Origin: an uncultured Porphyromonadaceae bacterium | GTDB lineage: Bacteria > Bacteroidota > Bacteroidia > Bacteroidales > Muribaculaceae | Length of the DNA stretch: 36,252 nucleotides | Direction: 5' to 3' | Assembly (NCBI GenBank): GCA_947176295.1 | Contig: CAMWQB010000013.1 | Location: 1-36,252, forward strand | Shown: positions 2 to 34,596 of the stretch, piece by piece | Position numbering within the stretch: the first letter of the stretch is position 1 | Layout: every line of letters begins with the position of its first letter | Program-made: the position numbers and the translations under genes | The notes under the pieces: model-generated | What the model was told of the DNA's origin: nothing | The model's input: the letters and a program-made list of their open reading frames with translations, nothing else | Database searches by the model: none

Positions 2-1276
2 CCTTACATCGTGCAGCTGACATCGAATGTGGCATCGGCAGCGCATGTGGAGTTTCACGCGAGAATTCTGGCCCAGAAGTATCTGGCACGCGAACTGATA
101 AGCTTCGCATCGGAAGTGGAGAACCATGCTTTCGACGAGAGCAATGATGTGGATGACCTTCTGCAGGAAGCTGAGAGCAAGATTTTCGATCTCTCGCAGC
201 GGAATGTGAAGAAAGAGGTAACTCAAATAGATCCCGTAATCGATGAGGCTATCAAACAGATAGAGGCCGCTTCGAACCGTGCTTCGGGTCTTTCGGGCCT
301 TGCAACGGGATTCAATGACCTTGACAAGATAACAGCCGGATGGCAGAATTCCGATCTGGTGATTATCGCCGCCCGACCTGCGATGGGCAAAACCGCATTC
401 GTGCTGTCGATGGCCAAGAACATGGCAGTGAACTTCAACACACCTCTTGCTTTCTTCTCACTGGAAATGAGCAATCTTCAGCTGGTGAACCGCCTTTTGC
501 AGAATGTGTGTGAAATCGATGGTGCAAAAATCAAGACCGGCGATCTGACGCCACTTGAATGGAGCCAGGTATCGAGCCGCAGTACGATGCTCCGAGGGGT
601 TCCTCTATACATCGACGATACTCCTTCGCTTTCGATTCTTGAGCTACGAACAAAGGCCAGAAGGCTCGTCCGCGAGAAGGGCGTAAAAATTATTATTATT
701 GATTATCTGCAACTTATGAATGCCTCGGGGATGAAATTCGGGTCGCGAGAGCAGGAGGTTTCAATGATTTCGCGCTCGCTGAAGCAATTGGCCAAGGAGC
801 TGAACATTCCGATCATCGCTCTTTCACAGCTGAACCGCTCGGTGGAGTCGCGCACGAACGACAACAAGCGGCCTCAGCTCTCCGACCTTCGAGAATCGGG
901 CGCCATCGAGCAGGATGCTGACATGGTGTGCTTTATCCACCGGCCGGAGTACTATCTAAAGTCGGGCGAGGATGCGGCGGGCAACGATATCCGAGGCAAG
1001 GCTGAATTCATTATCGCCAAGCATCGTTCGGGCGCAGTAGGGGATGTGGATATGCGCTTCCGCGGAAAATATGCGCGATTCGAGAACTGGGGCACAGACA
1101 TTGGCGACGCGGGTGGCGCGTTCACGCGCAGGGCGTCGAAGTTCAACGACGGCGACATGCCCGGCGGCGACCCCTTGGCAGCTTCCGACGACGTGTCGAG
1201 ATTGGGGGGCACCATGCCGAATCAACCGGCCGGGAATGAAGACTTCCTGAAAGGCGGCGAAGAAATGCCCTTCTGA
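2..1276 (+). CDS. dnaB: Replicative DNA helicase DnaB, 5'-truncated by the window edge
   Basis: Hexameric helicase that unwinds DNA at the replication fork and recruits primase. The reading frame is open from base 2 and begins inside the protein (PYIVQLTS..., the end of the N-terminal domain and start of the linker), so the N-terminus lies outside the window; the GTG at base 11 is not a real start. The RecA-like C-terminal domain is complete. Counting from that GTG, Walker A is ARPAMGKT at about residues 121-128, the Walker B strand IIIIDYLQL is near residue 230, and the QLNRSVE and ESGAIEQDAD motifs typical of DnaB follow. The C-terminal tail is Gly/Asp-rich and low in complexity. It stops with TGA at 1274-1276. 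No convincing terminator is visible in the 104 bases before the next gene, which is convergent. Confidence 0.97.
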   Translation, partial: PYIVQLTSNVASAAHVEFHARILAQKYLARELISFASEVENHAFDESNDVDDLLQEAESKIFDLSQRNVKKEVTQIDPVIDEAIKQIEAASNRASGLSGLATGFNDLDKITAGWQNSDLVIIAARPAMGKTAFVLSMAKNMAVNFNTPLAFFSLEMSNLQLVNRLLQNVCEIDGAKIKTGDLTPLEWSQVSSRSTMLRGVPLYIDDTPSLSILELRTKARRLVREKGVKIIIIDYLQLMNASGMKFGSREQEVSMISRSLKQLAKELNIPIIALSQLNRSVESRTNDNKRPQLSDLRESGAIEQDADMVCFIHRPEYYLKSGEDAAGNDIRGKAEFIIAKHRSGAVGDVDMRFRGKYARFENWGTDIGDAGGAFTRRASKFNDGDMPGGDPLAASDDVSRLGGTMPNQPAGNEDFLKGGEEMPF

Positions 1277-6969: not shown

Positions 6970-9900
6970 ATGGACAAGAAATTTCTGCGGCAGGTAGCCG
7001 CTTACTACGGGCGCAAAGACCCGCGGGAACTCGGGGGATATACGTTCGTAACGCCGAACAAGCGATCGGCGATGTTTCTCAAACGCTATCTCCGCGACAC
7101 TCTGAGCGGCGAGGGTCCGGTTCTGCTGCCGAGGTTCGCAACCTTCAGCAGGATGCTCACCCACTTTGCCGACTATGGGGAGGGAGGACGCAACGAGCTG
7201 TTGTTCACGCTCTATGAGAGCGTGAGAGAGGTATATGCGGAAGCAGGACGGCCTGACGGCCCCGGGAGCTTCGACTCGTTTATCTTCTGGGGGGATATGA
7301 TGCTGAGCGACTTCAACGAGATAGATACGTCGCTGGCGGATGCCGGTGCGCTATTCAAGAACATACGCAATATCAAGGAAATCCAAAGCGACTTCCTTGA
7401 CGAGGACCAGAAGGAAATCGTGCGTCGCCTCTGGGGCGAGAGCCGTCTGACGCGCGAAAGCGGGTCGATACAAGATGGCGACTCGGAATTTTGGCTGCAC
7501 TTGTCGGGGACACCCGAAGACGATGGGATGCGCAACAGTTTCAAGAGCTTGTGGGATCTCCAGGGACGTATCTACGAGACCTTCCACCGGAAGCTGCGGG
7601 AAAAGGAGACAGGTACGACAGGCTCGACGGCAAGGGCAGCGTGGAAACGCATCAAGCACATCAGTGCCGACGAGCTTCCCTACCCCACGCGCTATGTGTT
7701 TGTGGGGTTCGGAGATCCGACAGCCGTGGAGACGCTTGTGATGAAGCGTTTCCACGACATAGGTATAGCAGATTTTTTTTGGGATATACGTCGCACACAA
7801 TCCCTTTTGGGCGAAAACGGGCCAACAAACAAATCAATTGCGCGCATCGCGGCAATGTCGAAGGAGTTCCATGAGCCTGAGGATTTTGAAGCATATCCGG
7901 AACGCACTTCAGGGACACCGGATATAGAAGTGATTGCGGTGCCGTCGAAAACGGCTCAGGCCAAGGCTGTGCATAATATACTGAAGGAATTGATCGCCGC
8001 AGGGGTGATGGATACGAGCAATCCCGTGAATACAGCCATTGTGCTTCCTGACGAAAACCTTCTTATGCCTGTGCTGTTTTCGCTGCCCGAAGAAATCGAG
8101 GCCATCAACATAACGATGGGCGTACCCTACTCCACGACTACATTCGCCAAACTCTTCGAAAGTATAATCATGATGCAGCGGAGAGCGCATGATACAGGGG
8201 GGGAAACTACGTTTTTCTATGAGGATGTGGTGTCGGTTCTGGGCCATCCTCATATACGGCTCCTTTGCGGGGAAGCTGTGGACAAGGTGCTGAAGCACAT
8301 CGATGACGAACACGTGTTCAATGTTTCGCCGGCGCTTGTGTCCGAAGCTGACGAGGAGCTTGGGGAAGTCATATTCAAATCGGTGAGCGGCCGGGACGCC
8401 GAGGGCGTTGCCGCCTACCTTACGCGTCTTATCGACTGGCTGAGCCAGGGTCTGGAAGGGACTGCGGCTAAAAAGCGCGGAGAGATGCTCGAAACAAAAC
8501 TTCTGGGGCATTTCCGACGGGAGGTGAACGATATAATGGCCTTGGTGCGCGAAACGGGAGTGGAGATGAACGAACGGTCGTTCTTCATTCTTTTGGACCG
8601 CATGTTTTCCACGGCCCAGATAGGCGTGAATGGCAAGCCTCTTCAGGGCCTGCAGATCATGGGAGTGCTTGAGACGCGTGCTCTCGACTTTGACAATGTG
8701 ATAATCCTGTCGATGAACGAAGGAGCGTTTCCTCGGAAGCAATACGGAAAGACCATGATTCCCAATGCTCTGAGAATGGCCTACGGGCTTCCTGAACTGA
8801 ATGCGGGCGAAGGAGCGTATGCCTATTGTTTCTATCGCCTTATAGCGGGAGCGGAGCGGGTGAAGCTTCTATATGATTCGCGTACGGGTGTGAACGGCGC
8901 GGGAGAGGAAAGCCGCTATATATCGCAGCTGAGGTATCTATTGTCCGAGCCTGAGGTGCGGACACGTGTATTATCACTTCCTGCAAGTTTCTCTCAAGGG
9001 CGGACCATAAGTGTGCGCAAGGAAGGTGAAGTTGCCAAAGCCCTTGAAGCATTTCGAGGCGGAGGGAACAAGTATCTGTCGGCCTCGAGCCTGAAAACGT
9101 ATCTTAGCTGTCCGCTTCAGTTCTATCTGTCGAATGTTGCGGGGCTGCGCCCGGACACGGAGATGGTGAATTACCTGACCGCCGCAGAGTACGGGCAGAT
9201 ATTCCATAGAGTATTCCAAAATCTCTACAAGGACTACGAAGGTGGGCGGCTTGTGAGAGAAGAGGACATCGACCGCTGGCTGAAGGCTCCGGAGCAGTAT
9301 ATCCGCCCCCTTATCGACGATGCGATATTCGAGTTCCGGCATCCACGACGCTACAGGGATAAGCGCCCCGCCCCGGCCCAGACATCGGAGGAGCAGACGG
9401 TTGCCGAGGCAATCTTCCGAATGATTCAAAAACTTCTGCGTCTGGAAGCGGAAATTTTTACTCCGGGAAGCGAAGGGTTCAAGTACATCAAGGGCGAACT
9501 TGAAGTGAAAGGCCCGTGGCAGATAAGCCAAGAACGGAATGTGAATTTCCGTATGTTCATCGACCGAGCCGATGAGCCGTCGGCCGGGAAACTGCGGTTC
9601 ATCGACTACAAAACCGGCTCGGATGCTACGACCGTGGACATCGAACAACTCACCAATCCGAAGTATGGGGTGAACAGCGGTGCCGTTTTTCAGCTGCTGA
9701 CTTATTGCGAGGCCTATAAGGACATGGCGCATTTCGACGGGCCTATACAACCGATGGTGTACAGCATCCGACAGGCTTACTCCGGCAAGGCGCTCGAGCC
9801 CATACGCTACGGTAAGGGAAGAGGCGAAAAACAGATTCTTAGCGACTATAGGGATGTGTCGGGAACATTCCGTCCGATGCTGAATGAGCTTGTGAACGAA

Positions 9901-20501: not shown

Positions 20502-22214
20502 ATGGCAAACTTTTATACCGATAATCCTGATCTGAAGCACCACCTGACGCATCCTATGATGCAGAAAATCGTGGAGCTCAAGGAACGCAACTATACTGAA
20601 GCCGAAAAATACGACTATGCTCCTCTGAACTATGAGGATGCAATGGACAACTACGAGCGCACGCTCGAAATCGTAGGCGAAATCTGCGGCGACGTGATCG
20701 CTCCGAATGCTGAGGGCGTGGACCATCAGGGACCGCGCGTTGAAAACAACCGCGTGATCTATGCTGACGGCACGAAGGAGAACCTGGAGGTTTGCCGCAA
20801 GGCCGGCCTTATGGGTATGGCTATGCCCCGCCGCTTCGGGGGACTGAATTTCCCGATCACTCCTTACATTATGGCTGCAGATATCGTGAGCCGCGCTGAC
20901 ACGGGCTTTGAGAACCTCTGGGGGCTGCAGGACTGCGCCGAGACGCTCTATGAATTCGGCAACGACGACCAGCGCTCGCGCTACATTCCCCGCGTATGCG
21001 CCGGTGAGACCATGAGTATGGACCTCACAGAGCCTGATGCAGGCTCTGACCTTCAGAGCGTGATGCTGAAGGCTACGCAGAAGGAAGACGGGACGTGGGT
21101 GCTGAACGGCGTGAAACGTTTCATCACCAATGGCGACTCGGACATCCATCTGGTGCTGGCCCGCTCGGAAGCAGGGACGAAGGATGGCCGCGGCCTGTCG
21201 ATGTTTATTTACGACAAGCGCAATGGCGGCGTGGACGTGCGCCGCATTGAGAACAAGATGGGCATCAAGGGTTCGCCGACTTGCGAACTTACGTATAAAA
21301 ATGCTCCGGCAGAACTCTGCGGCTCGACCCGCATGGGCCTGATCAAGTATGTGATGGCGCTGATGAACGGTGCTCGTCTCGGCATTGCTGCACAGAGCGT
21401 GGGTGTGAGCGAAATCTGCTACCGTGAGGCTCTGGCTTACGCTAAGGAGCGTAAGCAGTTCGGCAAGGCTATCATTGAATTCCCGGCGGTTTCTGAGATG
21501 CTGGCAGTGATTAAGGCTAAGCTTGACGCAAGCCGCTCGCTGCTGTACGAGACGGCCCGCTATGTGGACCTCTACAAGGCTCTCGAGGATATTGAGCGCG
21601 AACGCAAGCTCACTCCCGAGGAGAAGGCTGAGCTTAAGGGCTACCGCAAGTTTGCTGATGCTCTGACGCCGATGAGCAAGGGTATGAGCTCGGAATACTG
21701 CAACCAAAATGCATATGATTGCATCCAGATCCATGGCGGGTCGGGCTTCATGAAGGACTATGCTTGTGAACGCGTATATCGCGACGCTCGCATTACGTCG
21801 ATTTATGAGGGCACGACGCAGCTGCAGGTGGTGGCTGCTATCCGCCACGTGACCACGGGCACGTATAAGTCTCTCATCGACGGCTACGCTGCCACAGAGT
21901 TCAAGGCTGAGCTGCAGCCTATGGCTGAGAACCTGAAGCGCCTGACGGCCCTATATGAGGAGGCCATCGCTGCTGTAAGCGCAGTTGGCAAGCCCGAATA
22001 TATGGACTTCATGGCTCGTCGCCTCGTCGAAATGGCCGGCAATGTCGTAATGAGCTATCTGCTGCTTCTGGATGCGAACCGCAACGAGAGCTTCATGGCA
22101 AGCGCTCAGGTCTACAACAAGATTGCTGATGCTGAGGTGAGCAAACATTCGGAGTTCATCAAGAACTTCAAGCCTGAACAGCTGGCATTCTACGGCGTGG
22201 AAGCCCAGGCCTGA
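20502..22214 (+). CDS. Acyl-CoA dehydrogenase family protein
   Basis: 570 residues, an FAD enzyme of the acyl-CoA dehydrogenase superfamily, longer than the usual 380 because of N- and C-terminal extensions common in the Bacteroidales version. Visible motifs are MSMDLTEPDAGSDLQSV (flavin and substrate loop, near residue 170), RKQFGKAIIEFPAV, and IYEGTTQLQ with the likely catalytic base Glu at about residue 436. The extra C-terminal 100 residues are helical. Co-transcribed with its electron acceptor EtfBA, so the operon forms a complete oxidation module. Whether it acts as a dehydrogenase or as an enoyl-CoA reductase in vivo cannot be read from sequence. Confidence 0.92.
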   Translation: MANFYTDNPDLKHHLTHPMMQKIVELKERNYTEAEKYDYAPLNYEDAMDNYERTLEIVGEICGDVIAPNAEGVDHQGPRVENNRVIYADGTKENLEVCRKAGLMGMAMPRRFGGLNFPITPYIMAADIVSRADTGFENLWGLQDCAETLYEFGNDDQRSRYIPRVCAGETMSMDLTEPDAGSDLQSVMLKATQKEDGTWVLNGVKRFITNGDSDIHLVLARSEAGTKDGRGLSMFIYDKRNGGVDVRRIENKMGIKGSPTCELTYKNAPAELCGSTRMGLIKYVMALMNGARLGIAAQSVGVSEICYREALAYAKERKQFGKAIIEFPAVSEMLAVIKAKLDASRSLLYETARYVDLYKALEDIERERKLTPEEKAELKGYRKFADALTPMSKGMSSEYCNQNAYDCIQIHGGSGFMKDYACERVYRDARITSIYEGTTQLQVVAAIRHVTTGTYKSLIDGYAATEFKAELQPMAENLKRLTALYEEAIAAVSAVGKPEYMDFMARRLVEMAGNVVMSYLLLLDANRNESFMASAQVYNKIADAEVSKHSEFIKNFKPEQLAFYGVEAQA

Positions 22215-22234: not shown

Positions 22235-22282
22235 AAAAATTAGGCGAAGCCCCCTACTCTACGGGCTTCGCCTAATTTTTTT
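22235..22282. terminator. Strong bidirectional terminator after the acyl-CoA dehydrogenase gene
   Basis: Perfect 18-bp stem, AAAAATTAGGCGAAGCCC (22235-22252) with its complement at 22263-22280, a 10-base loop, and a T run on the plus strand. The A run on the left arm makes it equally good for leftward transcripts, so it would also stop transcription from the inward-facing promoter at 22423. Confidence 0.93.
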
Positions 22283-22390
22283 GGAGGAGGATATTTTTGG
22301 ACAGAAATTAAATCAACGTAGGACGTCTATCTTAATTTATTAACAATTTTCCTCCAACCCTCTCAGGGTTTAACTATATAAGATATACGC

Positions 22391-22407
22391 ATCTCTTTGT
22401 AAGAGAT
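22391..22407 (+). repeat. Left inverted repeat of a putative invertible promoter
   Basis: ATCTCTTTGTAAGAGAT. This is itself a 7-3-7 near-palindrome, and it is the exact reverse complement of 22574-22590. The asymmetric centre TGT (ACA in the other copy) shows that the two copies are in opposite orientation, as expected for recombinase crossover sites. Confidence 0.8.
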
Positions 22408-22573
22408 AAGCGTTTAGACGTACAAAGGTAATACAATAATTCGTAATATAGCCAATATAGGATATAAAAAAGCAATTAATTGTAATATCTAAAGGTTACC
22501 ACTTCTTGTTTAGTAACAGGAAGTCGAGTTTCTTGTTTGCAGCTTAGTTTTTAATTATTTGAGATGATTCAAA
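22408..22573. promoter_or_regulatory. Putative invertible DNA segment carrying a promoter (current orientation OFF)
   Basis: 166 AT-rich bases with no coding potential, bounded by 17-bp inverted repeats. It contains CAAAGGTA at 22423-22430, i.e. a perfect -7 box TACCTTTG on the minus strand, with TTG (minus) at 22455-22453, 22 bases upstream. In this orientation the promoter points left into a bidirectional terminator. Inversion would put TACCTTTG on the plus strand at 22551-22558, about 68 bases before the ATG at 22626. I see no consensus promoter facing right in the present orientation. Size, repeat geometry and position upstream of glycan genes all match known Bacteroides phase-variable promoters. 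No recombinase gene is in this window, so it would act from elsewhere. Confidence 0.72.
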
Positions 22574-22596
22574 ATCTCTTACAAAGAGATTTTGAA
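22568..22596 (+). repeat. Right inverted repeat of the putative invertible promoter
   Basis: The core 22574-22590 is the exact inverse of 22391-22407. This copy has a longer palindrome: TTCAAAATCTCTT (22568-22580) pairs perfectly with 22584-22596 around an ACA centre, so it also forms a 13-bp hairpin in any leader transcript. Confidence 0.8.
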
Positions 22597-22625
22597 ATTC
22601 AATCACAATTAATAATTCAAATTTT

Positions 22626-22721
22626 ATGGACGAAGTTAAACTTCCGATCATTGCTCTTGTGATCCCATGTTATAATGAAGAATTGGCTCAACCTGAAACC
22701 ATAAAAGATTTATTATCATGA
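22626..22721 (+). pseudogene. N-terminal remnant of a GT2 glycosyltransferase (or GT2-derived leader peptide)
   Basis: A 31-codon frame whose product opens MDEVKLPIIALVIPCYNEE and continues LAQPETIKDLLS. This is unmistakably the start of a family-2 glycosyltransferase of the polyprenyl-phosphate (GtrB/Dpm1-like) type, in which VIPCYNEEE..LPETI is the first strand and nucleotide-binding loop. It ends there with TGA at 22719-22721, so the catalytic DxD region and the membrane anchors are gone. The stop overlaps the ATG of the next gene (ATGA, 22718-22721), the usual arrangement between real operon partners. Most likely an internal deletion removed the body of the gene and kept the start and the translational coupling. 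It lies 30 bases past the right inverted repeat. Confidence 0.75.
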
Positions 22722-24352
22722 ATAATATCGCAATTACCATCAAAAATATTTTATATATACTACTTATTTTAATATCAACAATTCCGGGATATTATCTTGT
22801 AAAGTATGGCCTCCACTTCACGGATGAACCATATCAGATAATGAACACAATGGATATACACCGGAGCCCCTTAGCTCCACTTACGAGTTGGTTTGGGGGG
22901 CTTCTTGGACAGTTGACGGACTATAGATGGCTATCTTACCGTTATCTTGCGGTTACACTCAACAATCTGTCTATTATTGTGGCGGGATTATATATGTATT
23001 ATCGTGTAAGATCCATATCACTTACGGCAATTACATGCTCCATAGCAATTATATTATCAGGATTAAGCAGAAGCTATCATAATCTTTTTGGTTGGGATAG
23101 TTTTACAGCATTTTTTATTGTAGTCTTAATAGTGTGCATGCTATTATTTATAGAGCATCCAAATTTTATCCGCTTGTTTTCGGTAGCAGTAGTGTCGGTT
23201 TTAACAACATTGGTTAGAATACCCAATATCGTATGCTTTCCGATAATTATAGCTGTTACGGTCTTTATGTCTTCCAAAATATATTCAGTTCAGAATCCCG
23301 GAATTAGTCGAAAATATATAATAAGTTATATATTTCAATTTGCTGTTTTATTATTTGTTATTATCACATTATTATACCATTCCATCCATATATACATCTA
23401 CGATATAAAGTTCAATTCAATCTCATCTCATTCTGCATCTTCTTTATTAGGAGTATTTATACATTCATTTATCAGGTATTCTCTTTCAATAATGGCCTTT
23501 GGAATGGTGGTTATTGTTCTTTCATGGTTTAGGAAGAGAATGGCCTCAGAAGAAACTATATTTTGGAAAAACCATTTCAAAATACTTAGTCTATTTGCCA
23601 TTGTTTGGCTATATTCAGTTGTCCACTACCTCCCTAACGTTATAAACGTCCCAGAATATGATGTAGTATGGATACTACTGGCATTAGTATATTTACTAAT
23701 CGCTTTCTATCTAAATAAATCCTTCAAAAAACTCCTATCAATAGTCGTCATTCTAATATTTGGAAGTATCTGTTTTATTGGAAGCAATAATGGATTTGTT
23801 AAATTTCCGGCGTTTCTTCTTATACCTTTCACCACAACATTTCTAATACAGAATACAAGTCAATCAAAAATAAGATACTTTTTAATTATAGCTATTCTAC
23901 CATTACTAATTACATATGCTCAAACAATACCAAATATAGCATTTCAGGATGACGGCTTCAAATATTCTGATACTATGGTAAAAGAAGGGAGAGCATCCGG
24001 ATTATATACATCTTCGCAAAAAGCCTCCGTTGTTGAGGATATACAGAAGCTTAATAAAATATTGACGAGCCACCGGATTGTCGTAGGAGAGGGTTATGAC
24101 CGATTTGTATATGAATATATCTTAAATTGTCCCAACTCTTATTTGCGTCATGATTGGACTTTAGGCGCTAAAAACCTTGACAAGCAAGAATATGTTTATT
24201 GGCTAGAAAAGAGAATGTCCGAAATGGACGACTATGCGATCGTGTATATTAAACGCGAAAATGGGTCATCTTCTATTGTTGAAGAATTTCTGGATAAAAA
24301 TTTTAAAAATAAATCAGAATACAATTCATTCATCGTTTATTTACCAAATTAG
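22718..24352 (+). CDS. Polytopic GT-C-like membrane protein, probable glycosyltransferase
   Basis: 544 residues with roughly eleven to thirteen hydrophobic segments and a soluble C-terminal domain of about 140 residues. After the first membrane helix there is FTDEPYQIMNTMDIHRSPLAP, whose acidic pair DEP in the first periplasmic loop is what GT-C enzymes (ArnT/PMT/GT39-like) use for catalysis. I infer that it transfers a sugar from a polyprenyl-phosphate donor to a surface glycan; the acceptor is unknown. Its start overlaps the stop of the GT2 remnant. Base composition is strikingly AT-rich compared with the housekeeping genes on either side, suggesting horizontal acquisition. Expression should depend on the invertible promoter upstream. 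Confidence 0.72.
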   Translation: MNNIAITIKNILYILLILISTIPGYYLVKYGLHFTDEPYQIMNTMDIHRSPLAPLTSWFGGLLGQLTDYRWLSYRYLAVTLNNLSIIVAGLYMYYRVRSISLTAITCSIAIILSGLSRSYHNLFGWDSFTAFFIVVLIVCMLLFIEHPNFIRLFSVAVVSVLTTLVRIPNIVCFPIIIAVTVFMSSKIYSVQNPGISRKYIISYIFQFAVLLFVIITLLYHSIHIYIYDIKFNSISSHSASSLLGVFIHSFIRYSLSIMAFGMVVIVLSWFRKRMASEETIFWKNHFKILSLFAIVWLYSVVHYLPNVINVPEYDVVWILLALVYLLIAFYLNKSFKKLLSIVVILIFGSICFIGSNNGFVKFPAFLLIPFTTTFLIQNTSQSKIRYFLIIAILPLLITYAQTIPNIAFQDDGFKYSDTMVKEGRASGLYTSSQKASVVEDIQKLNKILTSHRIVVGEGYDRFVYEYILNCPNSYLRHDWTLGAKNLDKQEYVYWLEKRMSEMDDYAIVYIKRENGSSSIVEEFLDKNFKNKSEYNSFIVYLPN

Positions 24353-24453: not shown

Positions 24454-25425
24454 TCAATTTGTTTGTTTGAGGGAAGTGAAGTCTTTCAGGTTTATGCGTT
24501 TGCCGTCGATTTCGCGGATGAAGTAGTTTGGTCTGTTTTTTGTCTCGTTGAAGATGCGGGCAATGTATTCTCCCATTATGCCAAGTGTCAATAATATGAT
24601 GCCTCCGAGGAAGAGTATGGTTACCATAAGAGTCGGGAATCCGGCGACCGCCTCTCCTACTATAAGCGTCTTCACAAGGATAAACACCAGATACAGTAGG
24701 GCGAACATCGATACGATTGAACCAAGGATCGTTGCGAACCTCAGAGGAACCGTGGTATAGGAGGTGATGCCTTCTATGGCAAAACCGAGAAGCTTAAAGA
24801 AGTTCCATTTCGTCTCTCCTGCTTCGCGGTCGCCCTGCTCAAAGGGTACGTCTGTCTTCTTGAAACCTATGTAGCAGTACAGTCCTTTTGTATAGCGGTT
24901 TGTTTCGCGAAGCTGACGCAATGCATTTATGCATGATCTGTCAAGCAGGCGGAAATCTCCGACGTTCTCAAGGATTGGTATTCTGGTCGTTTTCTGAAGG
25001 AGCTTGTAATACATGAGGGAGAGTTTCTTGCGTAGCCATGGTTCCTTTCCGCGTGTTATGCGGCGTCCATAGACGTCATCAAATCCTTTCTCCCATTCGG
25101 CTACCATCTCCGGTATTACCTCCGGGGGATGCTGAAGGTCGGCATCCATAATGACGGTACAGTCTCCTGATACGACATCGAAGCCTGCCATCATGGCCGT
25201 CTCTTTGCCGTAATTGCGAGAAAGATCCACAAAATGGAAGCGGGGATCGCGCTCATGCATTTGCAATGCGAGCAGAGCAGTGTTATCCGAGCTTCCGTCA
25301 TTGACCATGACTATTTCCCATTCATAGTCGGGATGGGAGTTCATCAATGACGAAAGTCGTTCGTACAAGGCGGGAAGAACTTCCTGCTCATTGTACATTG
25401 GAACAAGTATCGATACTTTCTTCAT
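24454..25425 (-). CDS. Polyprenyl-phosphate glycosyltransferase, GT2 (GtrB/DPM1-like)
   Basis: 323 residues. N-terminal cytoplasmic GT2 domain: VSILVPMYNEQEVLPALYERL, VNDGSSDNT (about 42-49), and the metal-binding DAD of VIMDADLQHPPE (about 94-96). The acceptor-side QGDREAGETKW region follows, then two C-terminal membrane helices (about 230-255 and 262-285) and the tail GEYIARIFNETKNRPNYFI. This is the layout of enzymes that load a sugar onto undecaprenyl phosphate at the inner face of the membrane. Its start overlaps the end of the 592-residue gene by 38 bases, so the two form one unit. It may also supply donor to the plus-strand GT-C-like protein, whose own GT2 is decayed (inference). Confidence 0.92.
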   Translation of the reverse strand: MKKVSILVPMYNEQEVLPALYERLSSLMNSHPDYEWEIVMVNDGSSDNTALLALQMHERDPRFHFVDLSRNYGKETAMMAGFDVVSGDCTVIMDADLQHPPEVIPEMVAEWEKGFDDVYGRRITRGKEPWLRKKLSLMYYKLLQKTTRIPILENVGDFRLLDRSCINALRQLRETNRYTKGLYCYIGFKKTDVPFEQGDREAGETKWNFFKLLGFAIEGITSYTTVPLRFATILGSIVSMFALLYLVFILVKTLIVGEAVAGFPTLMVTILFLGGIILLTLGIMGEYIARIFNETKNRPNYFIREIDGKRINLKDFTSLKQTN

Positions 25426-27166
25426 GTCCTTTTTGTCTTCGTATTTCTATGTCTTTAATTTTTCGGGAACCGATTTCGACACCGACCATTCCTTCTTGAG
25501 AAATCAGAATTGTGGTTGTGTCTACCGGGATACATACTTGATTATAATCAACGCTAGGCCGTTTTAAAATTTTATGTATCATCTCTGAAATATTTGAACG
25601 GCTAACGCGCTGAGTTATTACTACAGAGTCTCCTAACGAGGGAGCAAATGAATCAAACCAAAGATATGTATCTCCTTGATATACGTTAGTTTGATTATCG
25701 ACCGGCTTATTATGAGAAATGAATGATTTTGAATTATTATATGCTTGTATGTCTGAGGGCTCTAAGAGGCGAATCGGTTTCATCCCCTTCATATAATGCC
25801 AGTTGAGAGTTTTCATCAACCAATAATCTCGTGTGGAGGATGTGAACCAATTGGAAAGGAACGGGTCTACATCAGAGGGTATATGAATATCCGGTATGGC
25901 AAGAACTCCGGTTGGAGATGCTATGTATTCGTTGACGAATGCATGATATATCCTTTTTAATTCGTGCTGTGTGGAGATAAGCCGGTATTGATGAAATCCA
26001 AAACATATCAAGCCTATTACAACAAAGGAATTTACGTAGGAACGATTAATAGAATTAATCGGGAAATATTGTAAAAGCTTGAAAAATAGGATGGCGGAGT
26101 AAAATGAGATACCGTTAAAAGATTGTGGAAGAGTATTTGCGACCATTCCGAAGGCAATGGCAATAAACAAAATAGTCCACTCAAGCTGACTATCTTTGAA
26201 GAATTCCTTTAATTTTGAATGGTTGTAATAACGCAAGGAAACTAATCCAATAATCAGAATCCAAAAGAGGTATGTCCCAATAAGAAGATTAATACCGGAC
26301 CAAATACTCCAAATAAGCCCCGGACGAGTGCCCAATCGAACAAAATTTCCGGGAGCAAGGATTAAAATGGCAGTTCCGATCCAAAGAGATAATGTCAGAC
26401 ACCACTCGGATGGGGTCAATTTCTTCCAATTACGAATTACATAAAAGAATACACCTCCGGAAAGGGGCAATGAAAAGGCTTCCTGGCTCCAACCTGTAAT
26501 AAACCCGATTAGGACTAATAGTATAAGAGAAAATAAATTAGAAGTCTTATTAGGGTAGCGGTGGGATTTAAACAATAACAGATAGGAAAGAACCAAGACC
26601 ATTGGGAAGAGGTAGTTCAAGCCACCTGCAATGGGATACCATACTCTACTATTATTTTGATATAAGTATAAATATGTTATGGCTACGAGAAACCATGTCA
26701 GAGCATTGATGCGTCCTTTTTTCTGTGCAGTATAATACATGAAAAGAATCATGATTGACAGAAGGAGGACGCCGAGAAAAATTGAGTAAGATGTCTGTCC
26801 CCATGGGCCGGCAAACATTTGGACAAGAATATGAATTAATGTTCTGCCGTTCGAATAAAAGTATTGGACAGCTTGTGAACGGATCGCATCGCCCAAATTC
26901 GCGACCAAGACAGAATAATCATTGCTGCCCAAAGGATTCGCGTCCAAAACATAGCGATATAACAGATCGTCGCTAATAGGCTCGACAAACAGAGCGCGTA
27001 AAACTATTGAAACTGAAGAGACCAAGCAAATTCCAATTATCAGAATTATACTAAATTTATCAACTCGACTAATGCATGATAAGGATTGCTTCTTGCATGA
27101 GGACGGCAGGCCATTATCCTGATCAAGAATGCCATTTTCCTCACAGGGGGGGGTATCTTGCTTCAT
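25388..27166 (-). CDS. Polytopic membrane protein, DUF6056-like, probable glycan-modifying transferase
   Basis: 592 residues with about ten membrane segments. Motifs are PISDDLLYRY soon after the first helix (SDD about 65-67), then YFYSNGRTLIH and SRVWYPIAGGLNYLFP. That DD...NGR...W-P--GG-NY pattern is what I associate with DUF6056 and with GtrC-like O-antigen glucosyltransferases; the acidic pair could be catalytic. The soluble C-terminal 120 residues are beta-rich. It is followed by the GT2 gene with a 38-base overlap, the GtrB-GtrC arrangement of surface-glycan modification systems. A good promoter lies at 27212-27242. Low GC. The family name is from memory; the acceptor is unknown. Confidence 0.7.
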   Translation of the reverse strand: MKQDTPPCEENGILDQDNGLPSSCKKQSLSCISRVDKFSIILIIGICLVSSVSIVLRALFVEPISDDLLYRYVLDANPLGSNDYSVLVANLGDAIRSQAVQYFYSNGRTLIHILVQMFAGPWGQTSYSIFLGVLLLSIMILFMYYTAQKKGRINALTWFLVAITYLYLYQNNSRVWYPIAGGLNYLFPMVLVLSYLLLFKSHRYPNKTSNLFSLILLVLIGFITGWSQEAFSLPLSGGVFFYVIRNWKKLTPSEWCLTLSLWIGTAILILAPGNFVRLGTRPGLIWSIWSGINLLIGTYLFWILIIGLVSLRYYNHSKLKEFFKDSQLEWTILFIAIAFGMVANTLPQSFNGISFYSAILFFKLLQYFPINSINRSYVNSFVVIGLICFGFHQYRLISTQHELKRIYHAFVNEYIASPTGVLAIPDIHIPSDVDPFLSNWFTSSTRDYWLMKTLNWHYMKGMKPIRLLEPSDIQAYNNSKSFISHNKPVDNQTNVYQGDTYLWFDSFAPSLGDSVVITQRVSRSNISEMIHKILKRPSVDYNQVCIPVDTTTILISQEGMVGVEIGSRKIKDIEIRRQKGHEESIDTCSNVQ

Positions 27167-31929: not shown

Positions 31930-33027
31930 TTAATTAAACCAATAGTCCATGCGGCTGTCGAGAAGGGTTTGCAGTTCGGCGATGGTCTGCTCGACGGCTT
32001 TCTTCTGCGCCTCAATCGCCTCAATCCGCTCCGCAAATTTCTCTTGAAGGGGAAGCGGGGGAACGGGCAGAGCAAATTCTCTCAGTAACTTAAGTGATAA
32101 AAACTTTTGACTAACGCCTTTATTATTATATTTTATATATTGTAAAAAAAGATTGGATTTAAGAATATAAAGAATGTATTTATTTGAAATATCATACCCT
32201 TGAAATTTTATTAAAGCAACATTCTTTATACAAAATCGTTTATTGCTTAAATTTATAACAGGATTTCCTATAGTTCCAATCATTGGCATTAAAATATCGC
32301 CAATATCAACTCTTGACCTAAAATCAATAAAATTAGCATCGTCAATCGAAATCAGATTAGCATTATCAAAGTCAACATAGCCTCTACTTAAATTCTTAGA
32401 TGTAATCAAAGGAATCCCATCTATAACATATTTTGGTGAGTCATGTGTCCCATCTCTAACGTCAAGTAGCTTACCAAGTTTTTTAACTTCCCAGCTTTTG
32501 GGGTTGGTAATCGGATCGCCGAAGAAGTCGTAGAAAAGAGATTGAGCGAGAGTGTCGAGGTTGCGAAGCAACTCACGGCAATCGTCTATCGTCTCGTTTA
32601 TCTTGTCAAACTCCGCCACAATCTGCTGCTGAAGCGCCATATGTGGAAGAGGGAAGGTTGCCTCTTTAATAAGTTTGAAATGGCGAGAATAACCTAATGA
32701 GGGAATATTATACCATTTTAGAAAATGATATAAGAATTTCGCACAGATACAATCTTTGGGAGATATAATCTTCACTCCATCGGCTCCAACTACAAAATCG
32801 CAATCAACATATTTAAGAACGCGGCTGTGATCGCCAAAAATTACAACCGGTCCGTTATGTGGGGTAATATCATTCAAATTATCCCAATATCCGGAAATAT
32901 AAGATTCTTCCTGCGATATTATCGGTACAAGCCCTTCGTGCATATACTCAGATTTATCAACCTTAATTCGAGGTGTAATCAAGGATGCTATATCTTTAAA
33001 GGGTTGATACTCCCAGTTATGCTTCAT
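31930..33027 (-). CDS. hsdS: Type I restriction-modification specificity subunit HsdS
   Basis: 365 residues from ATG 33027, which overlaps the end of hsdM by 11 bases; an upstream ATG at 33039 is possible. Two target-recognition domains, residues about 1-125 and 175-310, are each followed by a conserved helical spacer: PLPHMALQQQIVAEFDKINETIDDCRELL and PVPPLPLQEKFAERIEAIEAQKKAVEQ. It should recognise a bipartite DNA site and recruit two HsdM. The second recognition domain is markedly AT-rich relative to hsdM, consistent with domain exchange by recombination. The site cannot be predicted. Confidence 0.93.
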   Translation of the reverse strand: MKHNWEYQPFKDIASLITPRIKVDKSEYMHEGLVPIISQEESYISGYWDNLNDITPHNGPVVIFGDHSRVLKYVDCDFVVGADGVKIISPKDCICAKFLYHFLKWYNIPSLGYSRHFKLIKEATFPLPHMALQQQIVAEFDKINETIDDCRELLRNLDTLAQSLFYDFFGDPITNPKSWEVKKLGKLLDVRDGTHDSPKYVIDGIPLITSKNLSRGYVDFDNANLISIDDANFIDFRSRVDIGDILMPMIGTIGNPVINLSNKRFCIKNVALIKFQGYDISNKYILYILKSNLFLQYIKYNNKGVSQKFLSLKLLREFALPVPPLPLQEKFAERIEAIEAQKKAVEQTIAELQTLLDSRMDYWFN

Positions 33028-34561
33028 GGTCGGAGGCAATTAGAGATTGAAGTGAAGCAATGCCGTCTGTAATTTTTTCGGCGAGGGTGGCGGCGCGACT
33101 GATAAGTACTTCGGGAGCTGCGTATTCTATGACTTCGCGGATTGTCTCTTTGTAGGTGTTGAAGGCGAGGTCGTAGTCGTGCTCGCGGATTTCGTCGAGG
33201 GGCACGAGGAATGATTGGTCGGTGCGCGTGCGGGATTGTTCTGGGGATTCGGACGCACCGGGGTGCGTCCCTACATGGGCGTGGAAACGGGCTATGATGT
33301 CGGGGATGTCGTTGTCGGATATGGGATTGCGCTTGTCGTCAAGGGAGAAGCCGTCGGCTTTCATGTCGTAGAACCACACTTTGTCGGTGCCTCCTGCGCC
33401 TCCGGTTTTTGTGAAAATCAGGATAGCGGTTGAGACGCCGGCGTATGGTTTGAATACTCCTGAGGGCATGGAGATTACGGCTTCGAGGCGGTTGCCGTCG
33501 ACAATAGCGCGACGGATGGCTTTATGAGCATTTGAAGTGCCGGTCAAAACGCCGTCGGGGACGATGGAGGCGCATCGACCGCCCATGGCGAGCGAGCGCA
33601 AGAAAAGCGAGAGGAAGAGAAGTTCGGTTTTCTTGGTTTTTGCTGTGGTAAGAAGCGACTTGGATACTGCTTCGTAGTCGAGATTACCGGCAAACGGAGG
33701 ATTGGCGAGAATGAGGGTGTAACGGTCGGTATCGGTGTTGTCGCTCGAAAGCGAATCGCGGAAAGCGACATCGGGGTTGTTGATGTCGTGGAGCATGAGG
33801 TTCATGGCACCTATGCGGAGCATTGTCTGGTCGGTGTCGAAGCCGTGAAGCATCGAGCGGCGGAAGTGGTCGTCGTTGTGCTGCTTCATGAGCTCGGCTC
33901 GGTAGTGTTCTTTAATATATTTAGCGGTCTCGACGATAAAGCCGGCGCTGCCCATTGCGGGGTCGCAAACGGTGTCGTTGAGCGTGGGGCGCATAAGCTC
34001 CACCATCATACGGATAATGTGGCGCGGAGTGCGGAACTGACCGTTTTTCCCGCTTGCAGCCATTTTGCCGAGAATATATTCGTAGACGTCGCCCATCGTG
34101 TCGCGGTCGTTCATTTCGAGGGTGTCGATACCGTCGACGATTTTAACGAGGGCGCGCGGGGAGGCGATGAGGAAGAAGGCATTACCCATGAATCGCGAAT
34201 AGGCGGAATCTTCCCCTCTATTGAGAGTCTTGACATAGGGAAATACGTTGCGCTGAATATGGCGAAACATCTTTTCGGGATCGAAATGCTTGAATACGTG
34301 CCAGCGCAGATCGTTGACGGGAATATCTTCGCCGGTGTCGGGGTTATGCCATGAACCGTAGGCGAAAGTGTCGTCGGATGCATGAGGTATATCGAGTTGA
34401 TTGTCTATGGCCTCTCGCTGCAACTGAGCATCATCGAGCATTTTCATGAAAAAAAGATATGTCATTTGCTCGAGCACCGACATTGGGTTGGTGATACCTG
34501 CGCTCTCCCAAAAGGTGTTCCAGATTTGGTCGATCTGATTTTTTATCTGTCCAGTAATCAT
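33017..34561 (-). CDS. hsdM: Type I restriction-modification methyltransferase HsdM
   Basis: 514 residues from ATG 34561; the ATG at 34591 lies inside the predicted -7 box and is not credible. N6-adenine methyltransferase. An N-terminal HsdM_N helical domain (about 1-140) is followed by the catalytic domain with the SAM-binding motif DPAMGSAGF (about 200-208) and the catalytic NPPF (about 287-290). The QSRTRTDQSF and YDLAFNTYKE segments near the C-terminus are typical. A 20-bp palindrome (33251-33270) sits in frame just before QSRTRTD and appears to add about ten residues. hsdS overlaps the 3' end. The system has no complete HsdR in this window, so it likely acts as a methyltransferase only. 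Confidence 0.95.
   Translation of the reverse strand: MITGQIKNQIDQIWNTFWESAGITNPMSVLEQMTYLFFMKMLDDAQLQREAIDNQLDIPHASDDTFAYGSWHNPDTGEDIPVNDLRWHVFKHFDPEKMFRHIQRNVFPYVKTLNRGEDSAYSRFMGNAFFLIASPRALVKIVDGIDTLEMNDRDTMGDVYEYILGKMAASGKNGQFRTPRHIIRMMVELMRPTLNDTVCDPAMGSAGFIVETAKYIKEHYRAELMKQHNDDHFRRSMLHGFDTDQTMLRIGAMNLMLHDINNPDVAFRDSLSSDNTDTDRYTLILANPPFAGNLDYEAVSKSLLTTAKTKKTELLFLSLFLRSLAMGGRCASIVPDGVLTGTSNAHKAIRRAIVDGNRLEAVISMPSGVFKPYAGVSTAILIFTKTGGAGGTDKVWFYDMKADGFSLDDKRNPISDNDIPDIIARFHAHVGTHPGASESPEQSRTRTDQSFLVPLDEIREHDYDLAFNTYKETIREVIEYAAPEVLISRAATLAEKITDGIASLQSLIASDHEA
33251..33270 (+). repeat. Palindromic repeat inserted in frame within hsdM
   Basis: GGACGCACC (33251-33259) and GGTGCGTCC (33262-33270) form a perfect 9-bp hairpin with a two-base loop. 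It encodes part of VGTHPGASESPE in HsdM, where relatives as I remember them go almost directly from RFHN or RFHA to RTRT. It resembles dispersed REP-type palindromes seen in intergenic DNA of this order. Confidence 0.55.
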
Positions 34562-34588
34562 TGCCTGAATAATATATGCGGTCGTATA

Positions 34589-34596
34589 CAAAGGTA
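34589..34596 (-). promoter_or_regulatory. Predicted -7 box for the hsdM-hsdS unit
   Basis: TACCTTTG on the minus strand (plus-strand CAAAGGTA), 27 bases before ATG 34561. It overlaps the alternative ATG at 34591 and so decides the start of hsdM. The -33 region is only TTTCC. Confidence 0.6.

Follow-up and report, generated by a model that had tools for sequence, protein, structure and literature searches.

The DNA analysed here, called the window, is a stretch of 36,252 nucleotides from an uncultured member of the Muribaculaceae, probably a gut bacterium, and the locus of interest (22391-22590) lies between an acyl-CoA dehydrogenase gene and two right-hand reading frames. The features of this region are as follows.

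20502..22214, plus strand: acyl-CoA dehydrogenase gene (Pfam PF12186/PF00441/PF02770), convergent with the OFF promoter and not its target
22235..22280, no strand: intrinsic-terminator-like hairpin (18-bp perfect arms and fold score), which would stop the OFF transcript
22391..22407, no strand: putative left recombination site, ATCTCTT-TGT-AAGAGAT, exact reverse complement of the right site and member of the site family described below
22408..22573, no strand: putative invertible segment of 166 bp
22423..22430, minus strand: -7 box TACCTTTG (TAnnTTTG) of a leftward promoter, which leaves the right-hand gene OFF; the only exact TAnnTTTG in 22301-22740
22452..22455, minus strand: possible -33 element TTGG, 21 nt upstream of the -7 box, imperfect (3 of the 4 letters of TTTG)
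22574..22590, no strand: putative right recombination site, ATCTCTT-ACA-AAGAGAT, exact inverted copy of the left site and member of the same family
22626..22721, plus strand: 31-aa ORF, from its sequence perhaps what is left of the N-terminus of a family-2 glycosyltransferase, with an ATGA overlap with the next start
22718..24352, plus strand: 544-aa membrane protein, GT-C-glycosyltransferase-like (from the ORF, an alignment and weak PMT_2 matches), the gene that inversion would switch ON

The two 17-mers are 100% complementary with 166 nt between them, and no ORF of 80 aa or more lies inside, in agreement with a first-pass annotation of this DNA, which had described exact inverted repeats enclosing no genes. 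When the 17-mer was sought in the whole window with up to 3 mismatches, 4 matches were found where 0.16 were expected, a number reached in 0 of 100 shuffles of the window, and all of them are the two copies, each read on both strands. The same annotation saw each repeat as a near-palindrome with an asymmetric TGT/ACA centre, and the letters bear this out (arms ATCTCTT and AAGAGAT), the palindrome of the right site reaching, in the present orientation, 22568-22596 with 13-bp arms. Because each repeat is itself a palindrome (ATCTCTT-NNN-AAGAGAT), three centre bases, TGT/ACA, decide whether the pair is inverted or direct, and the inverted reading would be a weak one from the letters of the window by themselves.

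The minus-strand consensus promoter that had been placed between the repeats is present (TAnnTTTG at 22423-22430), 15 bp inside the repeat. It is aimed left, the orientation that had been called OFF, at a hairpin on the path of the leftward transcript, whose perfect arms (22235-22252 and 22263-22280) are flanked by A/T runs and which has a fold z-score of -6.33. As written, no exact TAnnTTTG in 22301-22740 faces the gene at 22718, and computation of the positions agrees with the earlier prediction that inversion would move the -7 box to 22551-22558, facing this membrane-protein gene.

The first of the right-hand frames had been read as a GT2 remnant. The small ORF is there, and its GT2 identity is an assignment by eye: it has no Pfam match, and a comparison with PDB sequences (E up to 10) gave three matches, one of them the N-terminus of an undecaprenyl-phosphate sugar transferase (ArnC-type) at a non-significant E of 1.6. 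For the 544-aa protein, too, no Pfam model scores above its cut-off. Nine sequences of its family were aligned (8 of the 11 other matches in the genus were used); D36-E37, W126, R167 and H238 are invariant in them, and two of the nine match PMT_2 weakly. An acidic residue pair is a trait of GT-C enzymes, and the invariant D36-E37 together with the PMT_2 matches suggests that the protein may be a GT-C membrane glycosyltransferase. The GT-C-like target gene of the first-pass annotation thus stands as an open frame of 544 aa, its GT-C assignment being a weak one. The structure predicted for the protein, made without an alignment, has a pLDDT of 45.8, too low to be of use, and the best match of the family profile in the PDB has an E of 0.86. 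Matches to the target were found in 9 of the 49 genus genomes, that of the window included, the others at 23-29% identity, and there is no orthologue in the 49 genomes, nor was one found by a protein scan of genome contigs; on these grounds, the search for orthologous loci by way of GT-C homologues was given up. Convergent to the target gene, at 24454-27166, lie a GT2 gene and a gene for a DUF6056 membrane protein (Pfam), the latter without significant similarity to the 544-aa target, and at 31930-34591 neighbouring ORFs resemble, by eye, the S and M subunits of a type I restriction-modification system.

The repeats belong to a family of sites. A survey of 49 genomes of the genus, that of the window included, found 104 sites with at most 1 mismatch, against 9 for a reversed control pattern. 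The repeat pair, sought in relatives as the first-pass annotation had proposed, is present as the exact 17-mer pair in two genus genomes (G012:C34 and G027:C67; genomes, contigs and loci are cited here by G, C and L numbers), and pairs with other centres are found in many. Among the genus loci whose sequence was read, 32 invertons with 33 inverted site combinations were recognised by a finder in which the two sites had to agree within 2 of 17 letters; with the exception of the L067 pair, the -7 box is always found 29-32 nt from one of the outer repeat edges. The aligned sites give ATCTCT[T/A]NNN[A/T]AGAGAT with a variable centre, the near-invariance of the arms being in part a result of selecting the sites by their arms. 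An exact pair of this kind occurs in 5 of 393 genomes drawn from the order, the window genome included, so it is widespread but not common there, and none was found in 2.9 million viral contigs.

A scan with free centres (ATCTCTTNNNAAGAGAT-146..176-ATCTCTTNNNAAGAGAT, which allows 163-193 from start to start) over 84,980 genomes found 114 stretches, with start-to-start distances of 163-192 (183 in the window). Going by their organism titles, we take these stretches to be from Bacteroidales, save three titled Clostridium (L195, L207, L240), of which L195 and L240 share sites with contigs C11 and C19 of genus genome G019. The centres were compared in 82 pairs from 80 of the 114 stretches, and they are inverted-identical in 82 of 82 and direct-identical in none; when they were re-dealt, 6.1 matched pairs were expected, with a maximum of 15 in 10,000 shuffles. 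Since the centres had been left free, this result removes the doubt over inverted versus direct repeats. An outward promoter box lies inside one repeat only in 75 of the 82 pairs, its TTTG end mostly 13-15 bp inside, with which the window box is in line; the box is missing in the other 7.

Strand exchange by tyrosine recombinases needs matched centres, as in lox- or FRT-type sites. An operator pair or a transposon end has no such need, so the centre rule favours recombination sites. If the palindromes were instead operators of a dimeric transcription factor on a fixed leftward promoter, without inversion, their near-perfect symmetry and operator-like size would be accounted for, as would the position of one site directly downstream of the promoter box; yet such operators would not require the inverted-matched centres of all 82 pairs, leftward transcription would run into nothing but a terminator, two plasmid records have a segment with similar sites in opposite orientations (see below), and a recombinase match lies within 128 bp of a site in 11 of the 77 site loci, where 0.015 would be expected within 200 bp. 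The operator explanation was rejected on the matched centres and is very improbable. Equally, a small non-autonomous, MITE-like transposable element with 17-bp ends would have terminal inverted repeats and a short non-coding interior, as seen here, but the inside is not repeated, since a 240-bp query has no match in the genome apart from itself and its palindrome, and the inside sequences differ among invertons (84 of 97 oriented segments are left once close copies are removed) while the promoter placement is kept. A MITE was rejected for this lack of repetition and this divergence, and we give it hardly any weight.

Duplicates were treated differently in these comparisons: the homologue comparison dropped eight loci, six being genus-genome contigs, plus L204 and L207, which were removed without good ground (L204 has a different site), the segment alignment dropped seven (the six genus duplicates and L207), and the test of 82 centres kept all. 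The 84 non-redundant segments are weakly conserved in a fixed register (AAA, TGAT..CAA and TTA, about 10 bp apart) at their promoter-distal end, some 13-37 bp from the repeat there, perhaps as a binding site of the arm or accessory type. From 31 sequences an internal element had been noted; tested as TGATnnnCA, it is in register in only 8 of the 84. One locus (L092, G044:C2) has three sites, at 9891, 10098 and 10132, two of which have one and the same centre and form a direct repeat at a distance of 34 bp: the outer repeat is doubled. Two other invertons (L086 9978-10172, G040:C10; L203 5873-6065) lie between divergent homologous genes, 77% and 36% identical, respectively, and here the promoter would alternate between two genes, rather than switch one ON and OFF.

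Several observations on the family bear on flipping itself. Of 77 site loci, 12 are no more than 200 bp from the end of a contig, against 2.15 expected (p ~5e-6, in a test that uses rounded genome sizes and contig numbers, leaves out G025:C246 and includes G000:C65:10371, a site with 2 mismatches), an excess that is expected if both orientations are present among the reads. The promoter is directed at a first gene in some genomes and away from its homologue in others, with 26 crossed against 160 same-state comparisons, part of the 26 being distant or paralogous; examples are L092/L212 (68% identity, DUF3575-like by eye) and L229/L248 (60% identity, UpxY-like by eye). In relatives on the pMMCAT plasmids, two invertons follow a recombinase that is 48% identical to the protein encoded on contig C18 of the window genome (see below), with UpxY annotated downstream. 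Between NZ_CP072238.1 and NZ_CP072253.1 a 216-bp segment is exactly inverted, with 0 mismatches, the compared parts of its flanks being identical save one base, and the other inverton is unchanged between the same two records. The pMMCAT sites (TTTTCTC-CAT-AAGAGAAA) have 3-4 mismatches to the arms of the window family, so the plasmid inversion supports the enzyme family and not the exact site of the window. On one pMMCAT plasmid (L285 2160-3489, NZ_CP072233.1) a transposase-bearing insertion separates the recombinase gene from the invertons.

A search of the genome for the 17-mer at other promoters had been suggested with the original annotation, and no further exact copy exists in the window's genome; what was found, with 2 mismatches allowed in the palindrome, is a second pair with another centre on contig C65, at 10371 and 10556, with inverted AAAC/GTTT centres, a spacing similar to that of the window pair and the same promoter placement. 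With relaxed arms, the whole genome has only these two pairs, and the reversed control pattern finds 0. The C65 promoter box faces away from a 225-aa gene, after which comes a GYF/FtsK-type ATPase gene (Pfam). The 225-aa gene is likewise promoter-away in G019, and in G034 its orthologue (70%) faces the promoter, the contig there beginning 39 bp ahead of the site. The inverton stands before an operon (L011, G000:C65, 2001-10572) that has, besides the GYF/FtsK-type ATPase gene, genes for ThiF/E1-like and JAB-like proteins by eye, and the operon is possibly a phase-variable secretion or ubiquitin-like system.

The annotation had also called for a search for an Mpi-type or tyrosine recombinase. 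The genome has five tyrosine-recombinase (PF00589) matches, none of them on contigs C13 or C65, so that a recombinase adjoins neither pair, and one of the five is the genome's only match to the recombinase family found beside the sites in relatives.

C18:29370-30689: candidate recombinase, Arm-DNA-bind_5 (PF17293), SAM_5 (PF13102) and Phage_integrase (PF00589)

Its ORF is open and the invariant residues are present. R288, K314, R387, H410 and Y419, residues of the types with catalytic roles in tyrosine recombinases, are invariant in 9 of 9 aligned recombinases. All nine also have YxxR (A1, position 384 of L017:1450-2772:-) at a place where HxxR is the usual motif of tyrosine recombinases. NCBIfam gives the C18 protein no name, its matches being limited to models of the Xer and integron-integrase types, far below their cut-offs. 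A match to this family occurs in 20 of the 21 genomes with a pair, against 17 of the 28 others (Fisher p 0.007), the 20 including G044, whose match carries an internal stop; G043 has a pair and no recombinase match at E <= 1e-40. When any site with at most 1 mismatch is counted, the figures are 31 of 39 against 6 of 10 genomes (p 0.23, not significant). No site was found near the C18 gene, the best matches in the surrounding 3.4 kb having 4 mismatches, so its recombinase would act in trans. Through the adjacency of its family to sites in relatives, the C18 protein is likely to be cognate to the sites, and it would probably be the enzyme that acts in trans on the window pair and also on the C65 pair. 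The Mpi-type alternative was not borne out: serine recombinases (PF00239) have 0 matches in the window genome (93.8% complete), in a search that was positive in 10 of 14 control genomes, the single Bacteroides control not among these, and it is relatives of the C18 tyrosine recombinase that adjoin the sites.

We conclude with high confidence that 22391-22590 is a promoter inverton that would be flipped by a tyrosine recombinase and would switch the gene at 22718. The recombinase would bind the common arms (ATCTCTT/AAGAGAT) of both sites and pair them, and strand exchange would take place in the asymmetric TGT/ACA centre; with the two centres inverted, the outcome would be a flip of the 166 bp between them. 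In the orientation written here (OFF), the promoter would fire left into the terminator. After inversion (ON), transcription from the box at 22551-22558 would start with a leader of about 60 nt and run through the right site into the small ORF and then the GT-C-like gene. The earlier claim of a phase-variable promoter for a glycan-modification gene is thus supported, by the site family and the recombinase, in its inverton part, while its glycan target remains weakly assigned. It is also conceivable, although improbable, that this is a former inverton now frozen OFF, its sites remaining with an enzyme inactive here and its downstream genes in decay (the GT2 remnant). The short ORF ahead of the target may be such a remnant, the contig has no recombinase gene and the assembly has a single orientation; against this, both 17-mers are exact and the -7 box is undamaged, the target still has an open frame of 544 aa, and the gene for the genome's only recombinase of the family is likewise open, with its invariant residues.

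The inverton of the window is a further case of a known Bacteroidales kind, its motif ATCTCTTNNNAAGAGAT being compared with the published systems by description rather than by motif letters. Bacteroidales promoter invertons with tyrosine invertases, TAnnTTTG boxes and UpxY or polysaccharide targets are well known (PMC4747536, PMC8748976, PMC11892184, PMC13114119). Among the closest is Tsr19 (BF2766) of Bacteroides fragilis, where one tyrosine enzyme inverts a local and a distant promoter, with a polysaccharide target, and where the local promoter is mostly OFF in culture (PMC4747536). It shares with the window a short invertible promoter between inverted repeats and a tyrosine recombinase, and the C18 enzyme would act in trans as Tsr19 does on its distant promoter, but neither pair of the window genome has a recombinase beside it (PMC4747536). 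An invertase clade associated with invertible promoters with a -7 TAnnTTTG has been described on ICEs and on plasmid pMMCAT (PMC8748976). The pMMCAT loci have a related invertase and the same site plan as the window; unlike the ATCTCTT/AAGAGAT of the window family, their arms are TTTTCTC/AAGAGAAA-like, and the ICE and pMMCAT loci are on mobile elements, whereas the window pair is on a chromosomal-looking contig (PMC8748976). A survey of the hCom2 community sorted Bacteroidota invertons into inverted-repeat groups, with invertase groups 102/103, UpxY targets and nearby tyrosine invertases that are mostly not themselves regulated, and our family resembles these groups, by description, in being defined by its repeats and in having TAnnTTTG-like promoters, UpxY-like targets and tyrosine invertases (PMC11892184). 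The Mpi-controlled capsule promoters, inverted by a serine invertase at the repeat ARACGTTCGTN, are similar in length to the window segment (183-186 bp in B. intestinalis), but the window repeat is ATCTCTTTGTAAGAGAT and not that core, and for these different letters and the absence of PF00239 from the genome an Mpi or serine invertase was rejected (PMC8375218). One literature search on the motif letters gave only unrelated papers, and in searches on invertons or phase variation in Muribaculaceae no title among the matches listed pointed to a paper on this topic.

What we had least expected is that the centre rule goes together with few recombinases: centres match within a pair and mostly differ between the invertons of one genome. 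It is tempting to read the centre as an address code, in which one trans-acting tyrosine recombinase would read the common arms at several promoters and the pair-matched centre would decide which sites join, a possibility to which we give somewhat less than an even chance. Variant lox or FRT spacers act as address codes in engineered systems. If this were true, each promoter would flip on its own, and the window genome would have one family recombinase and two addresses, TTTGTAA and TAAACAA. In a test on 32 invertons, 19 of the 21 comparisons within a genome show different centres (among the remaining invertons of the genus genomes, 12 are single), but the 7-nt centre is shared in 2 of 21 comparisons within a genome against 13 of 475 between genomes, which gives no sign of selection for different centres within genomes. 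Moreover, Phocaeicola massiliensis DSM 17679 has at least 8 pairs, and all 8 listed have ACT/AGT centres (L169, L170, L172, L200, L213, L238, L246). This common centre and the missing within-genome excess of different ones count against an address function. In 7 of the 8 listed pairs of P. massiliensis the promoter-away gene encodes a protein of 165-168 aa (MDYLFL/MEYLFL...).

In the bacterium of the window, whose genus-mates include MAGs titled Muribaculaceae (L182, L223), the finding puts a probable ON/OFF switch before a gene that may act on surface sugars. It also provides a searchable site family, ATCTCT[T/A]NNN[A/T]AGAGAT in pairs 163-192 bp apart from start to start, in several Bacteroidales genera, and the centre rule, without exception in the 82 pairs, is a testable statement of what such recombinases need, namely common arms and a matched centre. 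If the centres are addresses, they would offer ready-made orthogonal sites for gut Bacteroidales, and the choice of partner could be tested with a single recombinase.
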